Shown piece by piece: positions 48,342 to 60,935 of a DNA stretch of 64,000 nt. The DNA is taken from positions 62,001-126,000 of the forward strand of contig JAJEIE010000008.1 of the NCBI GenBank assembly GCA_022827625.1. The letters are read 5' to 3'. The first letter of the stretch is position 1, and each line of letters starts with the position of its first letter. Source of the stretch: Candidatus Poribacteria bacterium (GTDB lineage Bacteria > Poribacteria > WGA-4E > WGA-3G). Under the pieces are notes generated by a model, which was given only the letters and a program-made list of their open reading frames with translations, had not been told where the DNA came from and ran no database searches. The position numbers and the translations under genes are program-made.

Positions 48342-49118
48342 TCAACGACTTTCTTTCAGGTAACCCCAGGTTATCGAAAGTTTCCCAGCTGCCTCAACAG
48401 CGAGAGCATCCTCACCTTGCTCCATAAAAGTGTTGATTTCATCTTCACTCAAGGCACGATTCCAAAGACGAACTTCGTCAATAATACCGGCGAAGACATA
48501 GTTAAGACGTTCACAGTCCTGGCCAATCCGCCATGGATCATCGTTGGCATTGAGTTTCCCCGGAACGTCGCCTTCAACTTCTTCTTTGCCATCGATGTAG
48601 ATTTTGCCTGTTTTGGTGTCGTTGGTGAAGGCAACATGGATAAATTTCTCGGTGTCAGGTAGACCTGTTGAAATGTCAGCGCGGCCGCCTTCTGTTTCAA
48701 AGCGGAGTTTAAAGGTACCACCTTCACTAAATAGCCCGTATTGGACCCTGCCACCGCAACCACCGTGGACGGATTTGCCAACGATTTGGCGCGTGCCGTT
48801 CCAGTGTTCTGCGTTAACCCACGCCATAAACGTCATTTCGTCTACGTTGAGTTTGGGAGTGCTTTCAACGGTTACAAAAACGTCGCTACCTTCACCGCCA
48901 AATTCCAATGCCTTTCCGAATTTTCCGTCAACCCATTCGGGATTATCAATTACACCGTCATGATCGTTGCCGCTAAGGTCTTCAGCTTTGTCCCCATTTC
49001 CCTCATCATAAGGGTGATATAGCACCAAACCGTCCAAAAATTCTTCTGGACCGATGGACATAGCGAAGGGAGTCGTTACGAGAAGTAGCGCAATGGATAA
49101 ACAAATAGCCAATTTCAT
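48342..49118 (-). CDS. Secreted LamG/concanavalin-fold protein C
   Basis: 258 residues. A signal peptide (AICLSIALLLVTTPFAM) is followed by a LamG domain nearly identical in plan to copy D: LYHPYDEGNGDKAEDLSGND, FMAWVNAEHWNGTRQIVGKS, YGLFSEGGTFKLRFE, and IDEVRLWNRALSEDE. The end GKLSITWGYLKESR is the shared C-terminal signature. C and D flank the AAA ATPase gene on the same strand, so they probably arose by recent duplication. The gene has an extended -10 promoter (49154-49183) of its own and AGGGGGAA before ATG 49118. The ligand is unknown. Confidence 0.85.
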   Translation of the reverse strand: MKLAICLSIALLLVTTPFAMSIGPEEFLDGLVLYHPYDEGNGDKAEDLSGNDHDGVIDNPEWVDGKFGKALEFGGEGSDVFVTVESTPKLNVDEMTFMAWVNAEHWNGTRQIVGKSVHGGCGGRVQYGLFSEGGTFKLRFETEGGRADISTGLPDTEKFIHVAFTNDTKTGKIYIDGKEEVEGDVPGKLNANDDPWRIGQDCERLNYVFAGIIDEVRLWNRALSEDEINTFMEQGEDALAVEAAGKLSITWGYLKESR

Positions 49119-49215: not shown

Positions 49216-51030
49216 TCAGACGTTCAGACCCAACTGATCGCTCAGTTCCATCAAATGTCTATTAATTCCTGTTTTATCAATCCGATTGCCGTCCACAAAT
49301 TCTTGGTAAGCAGGCAGTAAGGCTTCAGGAATCATCCTACGGGAATTCGCTTCTCGCAATGCCAATAATCCCATGAACAGCTGCATCTCTGGTGAATATG
49401 CCGGTATGAAATCTTCTAACGCTTGGCGGAGATCTGCTTCTATTAGGTGTTCACGTTGCTGATGTTTCGCGATGTTATTGGCACGTTGGACAATCAAAAA
49501 GAGATCTCGCCACGTCAACCCATCTGTATCTGAACCGCCGACAAGTGCACGGAAATTAATTCCGTCTTCGGTTTGGCCTTGGCAAAATAGCCTTAAAATT
49601 TCTATTCTGCCTTCAGCGATGGGGGGTAGCATGACGAATTTAGTATCAAAAATGCCGTACTGACGAAATATCTGCGGCATCAGATCCGGACGGTGCGATG
49701 CACCCACCCATATCACCCTACCGTGCAATGAGGTGTCACTAATAGCGTTCACAAGGCTTTGGGGAACCGGTTGCCGTTCCTCTGGATGCATACTGGTATG
49801 CGGCGGTACCTGCTCAATTTCGTCAATGAAGACAACAACAGGTGAAATGCCGCGAATGAAGCTGAGAGCAGCGTTCAAGTTTCGCTCGTAGGAGTTCCCA
49901 TTTTCGTTGATGTTGATTGTCACTTCGCCGACTTGACTGGCGTAGCGGAGTTGGATAAACGTCATGTTCGCTTCGCCAGCGAGCAATTGCGCTGCGTAAA
50001 TCTTGCTGGTTCCCGGTGGACCGAGGAAAAGGACACCTCGCGGCACGCGCCGAAGGTCCTGGTTTTTCATACCCTCTGCAATATCTCGGATTGTCCACAT
50101 CACATACCAGCCATCCGCAGAAGGATTTCTCTGGGCATCTCCAAGTTCGAGTATCCCGTGACTGAAAGTTCTGATACTCTCACGCTGGTATCTCACAAGT
50201 GGTTCGCCAACGGCTTTCTGTTGTGTGGATTCTGCCTGTCGGATAACATCGTGAACGCCGAAGAGATTGAGACCTATCGTTTCGTGTGCCAAGACCTCTC
50301 GATCACGATCATCGCCGAGCGTTTTACGCATTTGTGATGCATCATCTGAAATTGCATGCAGATGGTCAATAAAGTGCCGCCGTTGCGCATAATCTGGGAA
50401 TGGAATTTCTATGACTGGAATCTCTGGGTTGACGGTGAGACTCGGATGGACATCAAATGTGTTTTGGGTCAGGAGCAGAATAATGTGTCTACGTCTTCGA
50501 ATCTCTAAGTCAGAAGCCCAATTTTGAATTCGACTGAAAAAACGCTGCAAATCATAATGGCCACCACTGCTCAAGGACGGGTCGTTTGGCACCAGATGTT
50601 CCAGAGAATTGATAACCAACCCAACTTTCGCTCTGCCCTGTTGTAAGAGGTTGTTCAGCTGCCGTTGTAAGTCCTCTGACGGCTCAGGATCAACGTTTAT
50701 AAATGGGTCTTCATGAAGTTTGTCGATTGCCAAATTAGCGTTGATTCTCGGACGTTCGGTCTCTGGGTCTTCTTCTTGCGATGCGGGAATCAGTTTTAGC
50801 ATCTTCTGCATATTGCGCCGCCGCCCGATATTCGGCCAAATAATGCCTTGTGATGTATTATAGCCGACAACAAGGTCGCAGCCTAATACATTGAGCTGCT
50901 CCATGAGGTAGTCGAAGGCAGGCAAGTAGCCATAAACATCGTCGTACAAGAGGTCCTGGACATTAAAATGGAGCAGAAATTCGTGTGCAGAACCCGCGTT
51001 GTGATGTCTTTGTATCTGTTCCCAAAACAT
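49216..51030 (-). CDS. Atypical AAA+ family ATPase
   Basis: 604 residues. The C-terminal AAA module has a modified Walker A, LGPPGTSKIYA (337-344), in which the usual GK[ST] becomes SKI, an intact Walker B (VVVFIDEIEQ, D403/E404), a sensor-1 region ASHRPD (family: ATNRPD), and IFRQYGIFDTKF where canonical Arg fingers of the RFD type are absent. The N-terminal 280 residues contain a second, more degenerate AAA-like fold (VGLVINSLEHLVPND). Such ATPases remodel proteins; this one may bind nucleotide without normal hydrolysis. It lies between two LamG genes, all on the minus strand. Identity and partner are unknown. Confidence 0.75.
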   Translation of the reverse strand: MFWEQIQRHHNAGSAHEFLLHFNVQDLLYDDVYGYLPAFDYLMEQLNVLGCDLVVGYNTSQGIIWPNIGRRRNMQKMLKLIPASQEEDPETERPRINANLAIDKLHEDPFINVDPEPSEDLQRQLNNLLQQGRAKVGLVINSLEHLVPNDPSLSSGGHYDLQRFFSRIQNWASDLEIRRRRHIILLLTQNTFDVHPSLTVNPEIPVIEIPFPDYAQRRHFIDHLHAISDDASQMRKTLGDDRDREVLAHETIGLNLFGVHDVIRQAESTQQKAVGEPLVRYQRESIRTFSHGILELGDAQRNPSADGWYVMWTIRDIAEGMKNQDLRRVPRGVLFLGPPGTSKIYAAQLLAGEANMTFIQLRYASQVGEVTININENGNSYERNLNAALSFIRGISPVVVFIDEIEQVPPHTSMHPEERQPVPQSLVNAISDTSLHGRVIWVGASHRPDLMPQIFRQYGIFDTKFVMLPPIAEGRIEILRLFCQGQTEDGINFRALVGGSDTDGLTWRDLFLIVQRANNIAKHQQREHLIEADLRQALEDFIPAYSPEMQLFMGLLALREANSRRMIPEALLPAYQEFVDGNRIDKTGINRHLMELSDQLGLNV

Positions 51031-51125: not shown

Positions 51126-51914
51126 TTAACGACTGATTTTGATGTCGCCCCAAGTCGTGGTTAATTTCGCCAGCGGATCGACAGGTGTCGGACCGCTTTG
51201 GGCACTACCGATTTCGTCGGCGCTCAAAGCGCGGTTCCAGAGAAGCACTTCGTCTATCAATCCCGCGAAGACATAGTTAAGACGTTCACAATCCTGTCCG
51301 ATGCGCCACGGATCGTCGTTGGCATTCAACGCACCCGGCACGTCGCCATCGGCAACGGCTTCGGCATTAATATAAATCGTTGCGGTTTCACCGTCGTTGG
51401 TAAAGGCGACGTTAACCCATTCCCCTGTCGCGGGGAGATCGGTTGTGATGTCGGCTCTGCCACCATCGGTCTCAAAACGGAGTTTGAAAACGCCGCCTTC
51501 GCTGAACAAACCGTATTGTGTTCGACCCGCACAACCACCATGGACGGATTTACCAACAATCTGACGTGTGCCATCCCAATGATCGGCATTAATCCATGCC
51601 ATGAACGAACATTCATTCACGTTCAACACATCTGTGCTTTCGACGGTAACGTAAGCATCGCTGCCTTCACCACCAAAGCGAAGGGCACCACCGAATTTTC
51701 CAGAATCCCAATCCGGATTGGAAATCTCACCATCGTGACCGTTCCCACTTGAATCCGCAGCGGTTGTACCTTGCCCCTCATCGTACGCATGATGGAGGAT
51801 AAGTCCGTCTGTCAGATTCGCGGAGACGGGCAGCGCGAATAGCATAGAGACTGCTATGAAAAGACACATGGTCCCGTTAAGGGAGAACTTGCCAGTCGAT
51901 ATTGTATTTTTCAT
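51126..51914 (-). CDS. Secreted LamG/concanavalin-fold protein D
   Basis: 262 residues. A signal peptide (MCLFIAVSMLFALPVSA) precedes a LamG domain closely similar to copy C (ILHHAYDEGQGTTAADSSGN; FMAWINADHWDGTRQIVGKS; YGLFSEGGVFKLRFE; DEVLLWNRALSADE). The end, PLAKLTTTWGDIKISR, keeps the shared terminal motif after a linker (SGPTPVDP) that differs from the other copies. AAGGAG precedes ATG 51914, and a TTGACA/TATACT promoter lies upstream. Copies C and D are probably duplicates. Confidence 0.85.
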   Translation of the reverse strand: MKNTISTGKFSLNGTMCLFIAVSMLFALPVSANLTDGLILHHAYDEGQGTTAADSSGNGHDGEISNPDWDSGKFGGALRFGGEGSDAYVTVESTDVLNVNECSFMAWINADHWDGTRQIVGKSVHGGCAGRTQYGLFSEGGVFKLRFETDGGRADITTDLPATGEWVNVAFTNDGETATIYINAEAVADGDVPGALNANDDPWRIGQDCERLNYVFAGLIDEVLLWNRALSADEIGSAQSGPTPVDPLAKLTTTWGDIKISR

Positions 51915-52199: not shown

Positions 52200-53576
52200 A
52201 TGAGAAAAGCACGGGGCGATTTGACCCGTGGAAGTATTTTTAGACACCTTCTACGGCTCTCTGTACCGATAATATTCAGCTACATTCTCCAAGATGCCTT
52301 CAACATCGTTGATATGATTTTCGTTGGAAGATTGGGTCCGGGTGCAATCGCTGCTGTGGGAGTCAGTGGAAATTTACTCCGATTGATTGGTGTTTTCTCG
52401 CTCGGTGTCTCAACGGGTGCTGGGATTATGGTCGCGCAGTATCTCGGTGCTCGTAACCTCGAAAAAGCCGAGCACATCGCAATGCAAGCGATCTTCCTGG
52501 CTGTTTTTTTCTCTATCGGTGTCACCCTTGTTGGTTATCCGCTCGCCGAGACCGGTTTACGTGCCGTCCGCATGGGTGATCCAGAGGTACTACGTCTCGG
52601 GACAACTTATATGCACATCACGCTCTTCGGTATCAGCACAATGTTTGTGTCGATGGCTCTCGGTTCTATTTTCCGTGCCGGTGGTGATTCCTTTACACCG
52701 ATGATTGTGCTGGTCTTCTCAACACTGATTAACATTGTGTTAGATCCGTTGTTGATTTTCGGCTTATGGGGATTCCCGAAGTTGGGGGTAGCCGGTTCAG
52801 CGTATGCAACGCTTATCGGACGTGGCGCAGGGGTGTTCGTGCTACTTTATCTCTGCTGGACAAACCGCGCCCCGGTGTCGCTGCGACGAGTGCAATACCG
52901 AGTAGACCTGACGGAGATGATTGACATTTTACGGCTCGGTGTTTATAGTTCCCTGCAAGGCTTCTGGCGGCATTTATCGAGGCTCGGCTTTATCTGGGTA
53001 ATTGGACCCTATGGTAAAAACATCATCGCCGCATATACAATTTGCATGCGACTTCGGATTCTGGTCATGAATCCCGGTTTCGGTATCGCAAACTCAGTCT
53101 CGCCATTGGTTGGACAGAATTTGGGCGCGAATCAGATGGAACGCGCCGAAAAGTCTACAAAGATTGCGAACCTTTTAGGCACTGCGCTCATGGCAGTCAT
53201 CGGGGCAGTTTTCCTCGTTTTCCCGCAGACTTTCATTCGGATTTTTACACCCGACACGACTGTTGTCGAAATCGGAGCTGTTTATTTGCAGTTTCTGTCC
53301 CCAACGTTTGGATTTATTGCTTTTTCGCTTATTTTAGGCAGAGCACTCAACGGTGCCGGGGATACACTCTCTCCGATGATAATTACACTCGCTTCGCAGG
53401 TAGGGGTCGGTTTAGGACTCGTAATTCTGCTGTCGCATTTCATTGGACTCAACGGCGTTTGGTTGGGGATTGCCCTCTCAAATGTCGTTCAAGGTCTCGT
53501 GATGTGGCTTTGGTATCGGACCGGAAGGTGGAAAACAATAAAACTTGTTAATAGACAAGTGCCGAAAGAGGCGTAG
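52200..53576 (+). CDS. MATE-family efflux transporter
   Basis: 458 residues with 12 predicted helices. The MatE halves begin with RLSVPIIFSYILQDAFNIVD, then MIFVGRLGPGAIAAVGVSGN, and repeat in the second half around ISIVLGRALNG-like segments (FSLILGRALNGAGDTLSPMI). The MATE proteins expel drugs or metabolites by sodium or proton exchange. There is no Shine-Dalgarno before ATG 52200, but the N-terminus fits the family. An adjoining palindrome and promoter may allow regulation. The rhodanese gene starts 53 bp after the stop on the same strand, so the two could be cotranscribed. Confidence 0.93.
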   Translation: MRKARGDLTRGSIFRHLLRLSVPIIFSYILQDAFNIVDMIFVGRLGPGAIAAVGVSGNLLRLIGVFSLGVSTGAGIMVAQYLGARNLEKAEHIAMQAIFLAVFFSIGVTLVGYPLAETGLRAVRMGDPEVLRLGTTYMHITLFGISTMFVSMALGSIFRAGGDSFTPMIVLVFSTLINIVLDPLLIFGLWGFPKLGVAGSAYATLIGRGAGVFVLLYLCWTNRAPVSLRRVQYRVDLTEMIDILRLGVYSSLQGFWRHLSRLGFIWVIGPYGKNIIAAYTICMRLRILVMNPGFGIANSVSPLVGQNLGANQMERAEKSTKIANLLGTALMAVIGAVFLVFPQTFIRIFTPDTTVVEIGAVYLQFLSPTFGFIAFSLILGRALNGAGDTLSPMIITLASQVGVGLGLVILLSHFIGLNGVWLGIALSNVVQGLVMWLWYRTGRWKTIKLVNRQVPKEA

Positions 53577-53629: not shown

Positions 53630-54466
53630 ATGGATGATTACAAAGGCTATGTAAATCCACAATTAGTTATCTCTGCTGAGGAATTGAAAGGCTCCCTTGA
53701 CGATGAAACCTACTGCATCGTCGATACACGACCGACTTATGAATATATGCGTGGGCATATTCCCGGCGCGCTGCATTTAGATCTGTTCGGTTTGAGCCTT
53801 ATTGATACCAGCAAAGAGACGTTTGATACCTTTATGTGGATGATAGCATATCTGTTTCAACAACGCGGACTTGATCCCGGTAAACCGATTGTCTGGTATG
53901 AGGACATCTCTGGAACGCGCGCCTCTCGCGGGTTTTGGTTTTGTGAGTATTTAGGACACCCTGAAACCCGTTTGTTGGATGGCGGTTTCAAGGCATGGCT
54001 CGCAGCCGATGGACCTGTGAGTACAACAGGTGTTGAACCCCCAGAAGTGCCACCCTTTCCGATAAATGCTCAACACGATATACACATGGATGCCGATGTG
54101 ATCCGTGTGCTGCTCAGTCGGGACGACTTTATCCGTTTGGATACTCGAACGGATGATGAGCACTACGGTAGGGTTGCCCGGGCGGAACGCCCAGGTGCGA
54201 TTCCCGGCTCTATTCACATTGAATGGCTCGATAATCTGGATGAAGCGGGAGCTTTTAAGTCTGCCGATGAACTCCGACAGATGTATGAGGCGGTCGGGAT
54301 TACACCCGATAAACAGGTCATGTGCTACTGACAGGGCGGATACCGCTCTTCCCAAGCCTATTTGGCGTTGCGGCTTTTAGGATACCCGAAAGTCAGTAAC
54401 TACATAGGCTCATGGAAAGAGTGGGGTGACCGGCTGGATTTGCCGGTCGAAATTCCAGAGGCTTAA
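53630..54466 (+). CDS. Probable selenocysteine-containing thiosulfate/3-mercaptopyruvate sulfurtransferase (rhodanese), UGA at 54329-54331
   Basis: A two-domain rhodanese interrupted by TGA at codon 234. The N-terminal domain ([27 protein letters not shown]) has Asp instead of Cys in its loop ([11 protein letters not shown]), as is usual for the non-catalytic half. The C-terminal domain ([20 protein letters not shown]) reads DKQVMCY-UGA-QGGYRSS, aligning UGA with the catalytic Cys of VxYCQxGxRS. The frame continues [18 protein letters not shown] to TAA 54464-54466, only 3 bp before the convergent hydrolase stop. ATG 53630 has AAGGAG upstream. Read-through as Sec gives 278 residues, a normal length. 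The alternative is a nonsense mutation at that codon. Confidence 0.8.
54332..54376 (+). promoter_or_regulatory. Candidate bacterial SECIS region after the UGA
   Basis: Hand folding offers two hairpins: CCGC (54343-54346) with GCGG (54370-54373), plus an inner AAGCC/GGC-UU stem; or AAGCC (54354-54358) with GGCTT (54372-54376) and a 13-nt loop starting 28 nt after the UGA. Distance fits a bacterial SECIS, but the loop does not begin with a G-containing pair, so the element is uncertain. Confidence 0.3.
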
Positions 54467-54469
54467 AAC

Positions 54470-55207
54470 TTACGGTGTATGGAACTTCCTTATGACTTTA
54501 CTGATTTCATTCGGGCATTCGTGTGGCAAGTAATGTCCAGTATTGGGAATCCATATCCATTGGGTGTTCGGATTGGGCGGAATGCGGAGCTGCTGTGCAG
54601 TCGTATCATTCCGTCCAATGCTCCCAAAGACTTCATAGATAGGAATCCGTGCCTGCTTAAGGTAGGCATAGCCGTCGAATTCTTTTACCGATTCCCAGAA
54701 GTTGTCCCAGACTTCAGACTTAAAACGGCTTCGCGTCTCTTCAGACTTTTGCTGAATGTGCGCAATCTCGGTTTCTTGCAATGAACCGTAAAAGCGTCCA
54801 GCGTCGAAAGCACTCCCCGCGGAGGCGAGGCTCGTCCACCCTTCCAATAAAACAAGCCCAACAACAGACGATGAATGTTGCGCAGCTTCCATTGCGACCA
54901 TTCCACCGAGACTGTGCCCAACAATTACCAATTCTTGAAGACACAAATAGTCTATAAGATATAAAACATCCTCAGCAAGACCGGCTAACGTAAAGGACTG
55001 CGTAGGCACAGTACTTTGTCCATGCCCACGAAAATCAAGAGCTATGCAACGCGAATTCCGAGGCACTCCTTCAATCACCCGGACCCAATCTGATGAATCG
55101 CACCCAGTGCCGTGTAGAAAGAGAAACGGCTGACCTGCATCGTCTGAATCAGTGTAGGACATCTTTCCCCAATGCATGGGGAGTACTGCCATAGTATATT
55201 GTCCCAT
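54470..55207 (-). CDS. Alpha/beta-hydrolase fold protein
   Basis: 245 residues. FLHGTGCDSSDWVRVIEGVP supplies the oxyanion-hole region, VGHSLGGM the nucleophile elbow Ser, and TGHYLPHE the catalytic His; LDFRGHGQS and an acid near EVFGSIGRND complete the fold. These hydrolases cleave esters, amides or C-C bonds; the substrate is unknown. It is the downstream neighbour of the amidohydrolase on the minus strand, separated by 62 bp containing an inverted repeat. Its stop lies only 3 bp from the end of the extended rhodanese frame, a tight convergent pair. Confidence 0.88.
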   Translation of the reverse strand: MGQYTMAVLPMHWGKMSYTDSDDAGQPFLFLHGTGCDSSDWVRVIEGVPRNSRCIALDFRGHGQSTVPTQSFTLAGLAEDVLYLIDYLCLQELVIVGHSLGGMVAMEAAQHSSSVVGLVLLEGWTSLASAGSAFDAGRFYGSLQETEIAHIQQKSEETRSRFKSEVWDNFWESVKEFDGYAYLKQARIPIYEVFGSIGRNDTTAQQLRIPPNPNTQWIWIPNTGHYLPHECPNEISKVIRKFHTP

Positions 55208-57844: not shown

Positions 57845-58042
57845 AAGCGAAATTTATTAAAATTTACGCAATACTGCCAGTGTGTAGGTTAGGTTCAGTG
57901 TTGTGAAGCTAACGCACACCGAAAGAGTTTCTTGTTTACTGTGTGAGTTCTGTGTATCTATAATATCCAAGTTACTTGCTGCTATTTTTATATAGTGAGG
58001 CGGGCAGGTTGTAACTGCCTTCTGAAAAAAATGGAGAATACA

Positions 58043-58663
58043 ATGTTTATATCCTGTTATAGGAGCGACTTTTCTGTCGTTATTTCTCGGTTCTTATTAC
58101 TGGCTTTCGTCGCGGTCCTCCCCTTTATTGGGGGTTGTGGCGAAGATGATAACCCTATTGTTGATGAAGATGATCACGAAGAAGAAGAAATGCTCCACGC
58201 TGATGCAGACGGTTTTGTCTTAGAAGTTAACGAAACCGAAGTCTATCGTCAGTTCCAAGGCACCGAGACCGGGGAGCTTACCCTCGGAGTCGGCGAAGAA
58301 ATTGAGGTCCATGTTGCCTTTCTTGACGCGAGTGGTGCGGAAGTCCATATCGGTGAAGAGGAAGGCGAAGACGAACATGAACATGACGAAGAGGAGACCT
58401 TCGCCTTGGGCTTGACGGGGTATGATCCCGCTATTATTGACATCCATCTGTCTGAAGGCGAAGACGGACATGCCGAAGAAGAACATGAAGGTGAAGAACA
58501 CGAGGATGAAGAACATGAAGGCGAAGAACACGGTGAAGAAGGGTTTGCACATTTTGAAGTCGTTGGACTGAAAGCAGGCACAACCCAAATCACACTCCAG
58601 CTTCTTCACGGTGATCATCCTGACTTCACGGCAGCACTCCCAATACCTGTGACCGTTCAATGA
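58043..58663 (+). CDS. Acidic, His-rich lipoprotein, probable periplasmic metal buffer
   Basis: About 206 residues. Signal peptide with lipobox (LPFIGGCGED), then a low-complexity acidic region, an Ig-like part (LEVNETEVYRQF; GEEIEVHVAF), a second His/Glu-rich tract (EEHEGEEHEDEEHEGEEHG), and a C-terminal beta segment (FEVVGLKAGTTQITLQL). Repeated EEH/EDEEH units are typical of zinc or copper binding. ATG 58043 is preceded by GGAG at 7 bases; the start at 57995 would add a cysteine-rich segment without a ribosome site. The TonB receptor gene starts 10 bp after its stop, so the two are linked. Confidence 0.75.
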   Translation: MFISCYRSDFSVVISRFLLLAFVAVLPFIGGCGEDDNPIVDEDDHEEEEMLHADADGFVLEVNETEVYRQFQGTETGELTLGVGEEIEVHVAFLDASGAEVHIGEEEGEDEHEHDEEETFALGLTGYDPAIIDIHLSEGEDGHAEEEHEGEEHEDEEHEGEEHGEEGFAHFEVVGLKAGTTQITLQLLHGDHPDFTAALPIPVTVQ

Positions 58664-58673
58664 GGAGCAAACC

Positions 58674-60935
58674 ATGTTAGGCACTTGTGCCTATCTGCAC
58701 ACATCTTCTCTGGTAGGTGCGCTTTTTAAGCGTACCTGCCTATTTGTATTGGTTTCCGCGATAGTCTGTTTCTGCTGCTATCTCAGGAATGCCCAAAGTG
58801 CTGAGGCAACGCTGTCTCTGAACGGGGAGGTTGTCGAAACGCAGAGCCGTGCCGGACTTGCTGGGGTTACCGTTCGTATTATCGGGCTTGAGAAGCGCGT
58901 ACAGACCGACGCAAACGGGCAGTTTAAGTTTGACGGCGTACCGGCAGGACAGCAGACGCTTCAGTTCATGAAAGTCGGCTATCGGCAGTTTGAACAGACG
59001 ATTGATGTCAATGCATCTACGCCTTATCTTCAGATTGCTTTGGAGGCACTGCCGTTTCAACTCGAAACAATTAGAGTGTACGGTGCAAACCGTGATCTTT
59101 CACAGTTTGAGGAGACAACCGATTTAGCACTCAGTGAGGCTGAACTCCAAAGACGGGTCGGCATGACCTTGGCAAACGCACTGGCAAATGAGACAGGTGT
59201 TTCGCAAAGGACAATGGGACGAGCGGTCGCACGTCCTGTCATTCGCGGACTCGGTGGAGACAGACTCCTCATCCTTGAAAACGGTGAACGCACAGGTGAT
59301 AAATCCGCTTCCAGTGCTGACCACGCGGTGTCGATTGACCCAACGACCGCAGAGGGGATCGAAGTCACACGCGGTCCGGCATCACTCATCTACGGATCAA
59401 GCACGTTGGGGGGTGTGATTAACGTCAAAAGCAATAACATCCCTCAGGTTTTGCCAAAACGCGTTAACATGCATCTAAAGTTCCAAAGTGAGTCCGTGAA
59501 CTCAGGGCTGACAGGGACAACGGGCTTAACCCTCCCACTGGGTGATTTTGCTGGGAATCTGGAGTGGAATCGTCGTCTCGCCTCTGATATACAAACGCCA
59601 GTAGGTATACTCGAAAACACTGCCCTTTCAAACGTTAATTTTTCAGGGGGTACTTCGCTGATTAAGCCGTGGGGCTTCATCGGTGCCTCCGGAAGCAGCT
59701 ACCGTTCGGATTACGGTATCCCGGGTTCCCCAGAGGGTCATCTCAGCGGCGTTAACATTGCTCTGAACAAACAGCGTTATGAAGGGCAGATGGAGTATCG
59801 CTTCAATAGAGCAATGCTTAAAAAGGTAAAACTCCAGACCGCCTACACCCGTTATCAGCATCAAGAGTTGGAATCAAACGGAGCACTGGGGGTGGAATTC
59901 GGGTTGCTAACCTACAACTTCTCAGCGATGGCTCACGTCTTGGGCAGTGCTATCGCTGGCGTATCCGGTGAATACCGTGACCATGCAACAGGCGGATTTT
60001 ACTGGACACCTCACACCCGTGAGTTCGCTGCCGCAGGGTTTTATTTTAACCAACATAACTTCGACAAACTCACTTTACAAGCGGCTATCCGTTACGACAT
60101 TAGGCGTTCAGAACCTTTTAGACCCGGTACGGTTATCCGCGCTGGAACCGTTCAACGCCGCGACTTTAACGGCTTGTCAGCCGCTACGGCTGCAATTTAC
60201 CGCTGGACAGATAAGTTGAATATCGGAACTTCCTTGATGAAGACATTCCGCCCACCCGGTATCGAAGAACTTTTTAGCGATGGACCGCACTTAGCTGTCT
60301 ATTCCTATGAGATAGGGAGTGCCGAGTTGGAACCTGAGATCGGCTATGGTGCTGAGTTTTTTGTCAGATACGCAACGGATAGGTTCAGGCTAAATCTGAT
60401 CCTGTTTCGAAATCGTATATACAACTACCTCATTCCGACGAACACGGGTCTAAAGGAGTGGGGTAGCGGGGCAGCAGGTTGGTTGTGGATTTACCAATAC
60501 ATGGGGCATCATGTTCTGATGAACGGAATTGAGATCCAGGTGGGTGGTGAGGTGCTGCCCCAAGTCCGCCTCGACTTCGATATGAGCGGTGTCCGTGGGA
60601 GGCTTGAACCCACCAGACGACCCTTGGAACGTATGCCGCCCCTCAACGGCAAACTTGTTCTCAGTTACACACCGTCCCCTTTTCACTTCCACGTGACATC
60701 CCGTTTTTCAGGCCGCCAAACCCGACTCGGCGAATTTGAGGAACCGACGGATGGGTATCTCGTCTATGATGTCGGTGGCTATCTCAATTTTTCGTGGTGG
60801 CAGCTTGAGAACATGCTGGTGTTCGAGCTTGAGAACCTTCTCAATACAGAATATCGCGAACATTTGTCTCGTATCAAATCGGTGATGCCAGAACCCGGGC
60901 GGAATGTGAAATTTCTGTACAAACTTAATTTTTAG
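58674..60935 (+). CDS. TonB-dependent outer-membrane receptor, probably for a metal ion
   Basis: 753 residues. After the signal region, a carboxypeptidase-regulatory-like beta domain (GVTVRIIGLEKRVQTDANGQ; GYRQFEQTIDV) precedes the plug (VIRGLGGDRLLILENGERTG; TRGPASLIYGSSTLGGVINV) and a 22-strand barrel ending in LVFELENLLNTEYREHLSR and a C-terminal NVKFLYKLNF aromatic end. Such receptors pull ligands across the outer membrane with TonB-ExbBD. The plan resembles ZnuD-like zinc receptors, and the neighbouring His/Glu-rich proteins support a metal, most likely zinc, but the ligand is not proven. GAGGAG lies before ATG 58674. Confidence 0.88.
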   Translation: MLGTCAYLHTSSLVGALFKRTCLFVLVSAIVCFCCYLRNAQSAEATLSLNGEVVETQSRAGLAGVTVRIIGLEKRVQTDANGQFKFDGVPAGQQTLQFMKVGYRQFEQTIDVNASTPYLQIALEALPFQLETIRVYGANRDLSQFEETTDLALSEAELQRRVGMTLANALANETGVSQRTMGRAVARPVIRGLGGDRLLILENGERTGDKSASSADHAVSIDPTTAEGIEVTRGPASLIYGSSTLGGVINVKSNNIPQVLPKRVNMHLKFQSESVNSGLTGTTGLTLPLGDFAGNLEWNRRLASDIQTPVGILENTALSNVNFSGGTSLIKPWGFIGASGSSYRSDYGIPGSPEGHLSGVNIALNKQRYEGQMEYRFNRAMLKKVKLQTAYTRYQHQELESNGALGVEFGLLTYNFSAMAHVLGSAIAGVSGEYRDHATGGFYWTPHTREFAAAGFYFNQHNFDKLTLQAAIRYDIRRSEPFRPGTVIRAGTVQRRDFNGLSAATAAIYRWTDKLNIGTSLMKTFRPPGIEELFSDGPHLAVYSYEIGSAELEPEIGYGAEFFVRYATDRFRLNLILFRNRIYNYLIPTNTGLKEWGSGAAGWLWIYQYMGHHVLMNGIEIQVGGEVLPQVRLDFDMSGVRGRLEPTRRPLERMPPLNGKLVLSYTPSPFHFHVTSRFSGRQTRLGEFEEPTDGYLVYDVGGYLNFSWWQLENMLVFELENLLNTEYREHLSRIKSVMPEPGRNVKFLYKLNF

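Follow-up and report, generated by a model that had tools for sequence, protein, structure and literature searches.

A rhodanese of Candidatus Poribacteria with UGA at its catalytic codon and a candidate long-range SECIS

A rhodanese gene of Candidatus Poribacteria carries UGA at the codon of its catalytic Cys, and the decoding of this UGA with selenocysteine (Sec) is very well supported. The coding sequence that follows contains an RNA structure, composed of a long-range helix (helix A) and a hairpin (hairpin B), which is specific to the Sec forms of the gene. We consider it probable that the gene encodes a Sec sulfurtransferase whose UGA decoding is directed by this structure, acting as a long-range SECIS. 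The gene lies in a window of 64,000 nucleotides, the whole stretch of DNA analysed, taken from the genome of a sponge-associated bacterium (5.0 Mb, 41 contigs). Its features are collected in Table 1.

Table 1. Features of the rhodanese gene and of its RNA element (window positions; nt, element numbering in which the UGA is nt 1-3)
Feature	Position	Strand	Evidence
Sec-containing two-domain rhodanese, 278 aa, U234	53630..54466	+	two PF00581 matches; alignment to solved rhodaneses over the full length
Sec-UGA at the catalytic Cys position (nt 1-3)	54329..54331	+	TGA in 66/66 Sec-type relatives, TGC/TGT in 3 basal homologues
Helix A, 5′ strand, nt 15-22, CCGYUCUU	54343..54350	+	100% paired in the 66 sequences; C-G/U-A covariation at pair 18:93
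Helix A, 3′ strand, nt 89-96, AAGARUGG	54417..54424	+	100% paired over 66 sequences
Helix C, 5′ strand, nt 39-43, within the arm that helix A closes	54367..54371	+	93.9% paired, 66 sequences
Helix C, 3′ strand, nt 68-72	54396..54400	+	93.9% paired, as for the 5′ strand
Hairpin B, nt 100-120, GAYCGGC-UGGAUYU-GCCGRUY	54428..54448	+	99.6% paired; 102:118 covaries C-G/U-A; codons near-fixed; degraded in Cys forms

The gene, its catalytic codon and its history

The rhodanese ORF begins at ATG 53630, with an AAGGAG ribosome-binding site just 5′ of it. As the earlier note had claimed, the same frame resumes after TGA 54329-54331 and completes a two-domain sulfurtransferase: 44 sense codons lead to TAA 54464-54466, which is 3 bp from a convergent ORF ending at 54470, and these coordinates were confirmed. 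Translation through the TGA yields a complete two-domain rhodanese, with the second PF00581 match spanning the TGA. The same note had placed the TGA at the catalytic Cys, and it does align with that residue in the full-length alignment to solved rhodaneses. Judging from sequence, the protein would share with A. vinelandii RhdA (1e0c, E=1.4e-39) and T. thermophilus 1uar (E=1.5e-37) the same two-domain fold, with the catalytic residue in the same loop. These two proteins have Cys, in a CQTHHR loop, whereas the Poribacteria protein has Sec, in a UQGGYR loop. By homology, the gene product would be a thiosulfate/mercaptopyruvate-type sulfurtransferase using Sec as its nucleophile.

All GTDB genomes in which a close homologue was found belong to Candidatus Poribacteria. 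In a survey of 98 genomes, every full-length close homologue of families f1, f2 and f4 had exactly one TGA and zero other stops, and the f3 homologues had no in-frame TGA. The set read at the DNA level consisted of 66 distinct full-length Sec-type homologues, one further homologue truncated at a contig end, and 3 Cys forms. The 66 come from three families of the order, and each has TGA at the catalytic codon and no other internal stop, a regularity that chance would not produce. At the same codon the three basal homologues (L070, L113 and L114, all from f3) have TGC in two cases and TGT in one. The nearest outgroups carry the motif CYCQxGxRS. In a tree built without L167, whose translation was empty, the Sec clade is nested within Cys forms (UFBoot 95), which indicates that Cys was replaced by Sec once in this sample. 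Two of the three f3 genomes (G059 and G062) have a detectable tRNA-Sec, and all three have a TGA-type selD; the Cys form is therefore not explained by a loss of Sec decoding.

Most members have a Cys two residues before Sec (C-Y-U); it is not essential, because a few members have Ser instead. The codons flanking the UGA (54326-54328 and 54332-54334), both outside helices A and B, are almost fixed: TAC precedes it in 51 of 51 sequences (background 44%), and CAG follows it in 65 of 66 (background 38%). They are perhaps part of the decoding context. A coarse scan of the window for other TGA read-through genes gave no credible one.

Several neighbouring features were recorded in the window. A MATE-family transporter (52200-53576) lies directly upstream of the rhodanese, and a MATE-type transporter is immediately upstream in every f1 locus of the GTDB scan with enough flanking sequence; transporter and rhodanese possibly form one operon. 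Two similar LamG-like secreted proteins (48342-49118 and 51126-51914) flank an AAA-type ATPase gene (49216-51030), which looks like a tandem duplication around that gene. Downstream, a small His/Glu-rich protein and, immediately after it, a TonB-dependent receptor (57995-60935) are suggestive of metal uptake.

A conserved RNA structure 3′ of the UGA

Around the UGA, synonymous diversity reaches its lowest level in the gene (relative value of 0.27-0.35, versus a mean of 0.71). It is low over codons 235-248 (p=5e-5) and dips a second time at codons 260-278. Both dips are accounted for by helix A, of 8 bp, and hairpin B, a 7-bp stem with the 7-nt loop UGGAUYU located 3 nt past the closing pair of A. 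The earlier note had proposed 54326-54380 as the SECIS interval; this was too short, as the conserved structure extends to 54448.

An unbiased scan of nt -30 to +123 for conserved helices ranked A and B first, and they were the only long helices with compensatory changes. Both are present in the RNAfold structure of the window's own sequence (z=-4.1, 0 of 200 shuffles being as stable). Sliding the partners by 1-3 nt reduced pairing to 29-54% over the 66 sequences. Under a synonymous-column null, where codon columns are swapped within the alignment and relatedness is kept, a helix of at least 7 bp was obtained in 0 of 300 cases.

Cells changed on both sides numbered 25, versus 6.0 in shuffles. 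In helix A, pair 18:93 occurs as C-G in 49 sequences, as U-A in 13 and as U-G in 4. The tree has four G-to-A changes at nt 93, each of them in a background of U18, which occupies 31.5% of the tree length (p about 0.01). In hairpin B, pair 102:118 switches from C-G to U-A. Double changes affect four pairs, two of which are in the less well kept helix C. As conservation of the protein keeps most pairs from varying, few pairs carry this covariation. At positions constrained by pairing or by the loop, codon choice is extreme: S240 is TCT in 66 of 66 sequences (background 24%), R268 is CGG in 65 of 66 (16%), L269 is CTG in 66 of 66 (17%), and P272 is CCG in 66 of 66 (35%).

The minimum free energy of nt 4-123 was also compared with that of synonymous recodings. 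Among the 22 Sec forms tested, 20 had z values of -1.8 to -5. The other two, L127 and L059, were near zero, and each has one mismatch in hairpin B. The 3 Cys forms gave -0.25 to +1.1, and have mismatches in both A and B as well as a different loop. Only one evolutionary switch separates Cys from Sec forms, so the loss of structure in the Cys forms counts as one event.

An Rfam search with the element gave no match. A covariance-model search of the genome detected no second copy: it returned the gene itself and its antisense strand, plus a weak match (E=0.06) in a Cys paralogue of the rhodanese (contig C30, 33% identity). Loose matches to the hairpin B pattern occur at scattered sites in the genome. 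Hairpin B was also considered as a transcription terminator, and rejected: it has no U-run behind it, and it persists where the downstream gene does not.

How the UGA may be decoded

The earlier note had proposed a check for selA, selB, selC and selD. Family searches of the genome found all four: a tRNA-Sec with a UCA anticodon adjoins selB, selA is present, and selD (L028, G000:C40:54720-55643) itself has an in-frame TGA at the usual N-terminal position (KCAGUASKL). This TGA-type selD has an ordinary local SECIS, GCUC-CGGGN-GAGC, about 16 nt from the UGA, as is the case in most Poribacteria searched.

According to a recent catalogue (PMC13188914), 16-37 nt separate the UGA from the apical loop in a bacterial SECIS, and the consensus has a loop of 3-9 nt, a stem of 4-16 bp and a G in the first two loop positions. 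Hairpin B follows this rule for its stem, loop size and G. It departs from the rule for distance: in sequence, 103 nt separate its loop from the UGA, and about 22 nt only when counted across helix A. For the E. coli SECIS, the upper stem is described as beginning 11 nt after the UGA, at nt 15 (PMC8659212). The Poribacteria structure shares with the fdhF-type element of E. coli its start at nt 15 and a short hairpin with a G loop, but here the hairpin is far from the UGA and is reached via a covarying long-range helix.

From these features we infer SelB binding by hairpin B, distance setting by helix A and selenium chemistry at the active site, as follows. The cell would read the UGA as Sec with its own SelB and Sec-tRNA. 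The arm that helix A closes would start 11 nt after the UGA and loop out the next 66 nt. Hairpin B would be the SelB-binding SECIS hairpin, displaced by about 80 nt; as it stands 3 nt past the closing pair of A, its loop would come to about 22 nt from the UGA by the shortest path. In the C-terminal rhodanese domain, selenium would then occupy the catalytic position, and the transferred sulfur would be carried as Se-S, not as Cys-S-S. The selD SECIS of these genomes is of the ordinary kind, so this SelB would also need to recognise local elements.

The main competitor, which we regard as unlikely, is a selenoprotein with a local SECIS, at nt 5-21 or elsewhere in the first 45 nt; helix A and hairpin B would then have another role, for example in ribosome pausing, protein folding or mRNA stability. 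Local elements are standard for bacteria, the selD of these genomes has one, and RNAalifold predicts a local 7-bp hairpin in the rhodanese gene (nt 5-11/15-21, 97.8% paired). However, this hairpin shows no compensatory change, and its nt 9 varies freely opposite G17, which is fixed; nt 9 changed 11 times on the tree and is unpaired in 9 sequences. The loop, 8 nt from the UGA, does not follow the G rule, and the 3′ strand is better explained by helix A. The hairpin was rejected as the SECIS for its lack of covariation. Hairpins with a loop 14-37 nt after the UGA were enumerated as well, and none was conserved with a G loop. The local hairpin and helix A share nt 15-21; speculatively, a ribosome reaching the UGA would melt the local hairpin and free its 3′ strand for pairing in helix A.

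Reading of the UGA as an ordinary amino acid, such as Trp or Cys, without selenium appears very improbable. A UGA followed by C, as found here, is a leaky stop context. Against such readthrough, all non-TGA homologues near the clade have Cys at this position, the genome has a dedicated tRNA-Sec(UCA) along with selA, selB and a TGA-type selD, and 6 of 52 of these genes end normally at TGA.

Still less credible, and in practice refuted by the comparison of homologues, is a decaying pseudogene, or a true stop with a shortened protein, for which only the stop codon interrupting the frame speaks. A single TGA is kept in 66 orthologues over saturated synonymous divergence, and the shortened protein would be without the catalytic residue. 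Beyond the UGA, dN/dS is about 0.02-0.07, and dS is about half of the upstream dS, the pattern expected of code overlapped by an RNA element. The weakest explanation, which is refuted, is a sequencing or assembly error reading TGC or TGT as TGA: the window does come from a metagenome-assembled genome, but the TGA is found in dozens of independent assemblies, including several single-contig chromosomes. The earlier note had called the gene a probable selenoprotein with a maintained coding region and no second lesion beyond the UGA, and had named as refuting a lack of Sec machinery, further lesions in relatives or a misread base; every one of these tests came out in favour of the selenoprotein, and no second lesion was seen in relatives either.

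Relation to known selenoproteins and SECIS elements

Rhodanese selenoproteins of the COG2897/SseA type have been predicted before, in the Sargasso Sea in 2005, with a SECIS shown (PMC1088965), and in GOS in 2008 (PMC2398784). A 2022 catalogue lists a COG2897-type Sec-rhodanese, MQG53192.1 (PMC9312934), and a 2026 catalogue a 'form 4' Sec-rhodanese with the motif UxxG, MCY3690685.1 (PMC13188914). By description, SseA-type Sec-rhodaneses have two domains, with Sec in the C-terminal one and a UxxG motif, and the Poribacteria protein matches them (UQGG). The lineage of Poribacteria is not named in the available portions of these reports. As the class is already catalogued, the protein represents a new lineage, not a new kind; the earlier note had placed the novelty in lineage and pairing. 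We take MCY3690685.1 to be possibly from a sponge MAG.

Two other families, the rhodanese-related (seleno)protein NF041203 (CxU type) and TsoB (NF045694), have a rhodanese domain with Sec, as here; most Poribacteria members likewise have a Cys two residues ahead of Sec (CYU). The Poribacteria rhodanese scores far under their cut-offs, at 34.3 of 115 bits and 23.3 of 805 bits, respectively. Enrichment of SelA and SelB in sponge symbionts was noted in 2017 (PMC5649159). Our literature search, which had most subscription papers outside its scope, returned no paper with both 'selenoprotein' and 'Poribacteria', and no description of a long-range bacterial SECIS.

The new part is the RNA layout of the recoding signal. 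On balance, we lean towards a distinct class of bacterial SECIS, having the SelB hairpin about 100 nt 3′ of the UGA and a covarying helix that restores the distance, which would have arisen with the Cys-to-Sec change in Poribacteria. A subset of selenoprotein genes fails the SECIS model, and distinct classes are suspected, no structure being given in the available text (PMC13188914, PMC12013277). For such a class the Poribacteria element is a concrete candidate, backed by covariation. SECIS finders for bacteria expect the hairpin at 16-37 nt past the UGA, and a long-range class could explain some missed selenoproteins. The element offers testable rules, namely that helix A sets the distance and that hairpin B binds SelB, and the basal Poribacteria homologues L070, L113 and L114 are natural controls for the Cys-to-Sec switch. 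With these Cys relatives at hand, it shows how a recoding signal is built inside a coding sequence when Cys gives way to Sec.
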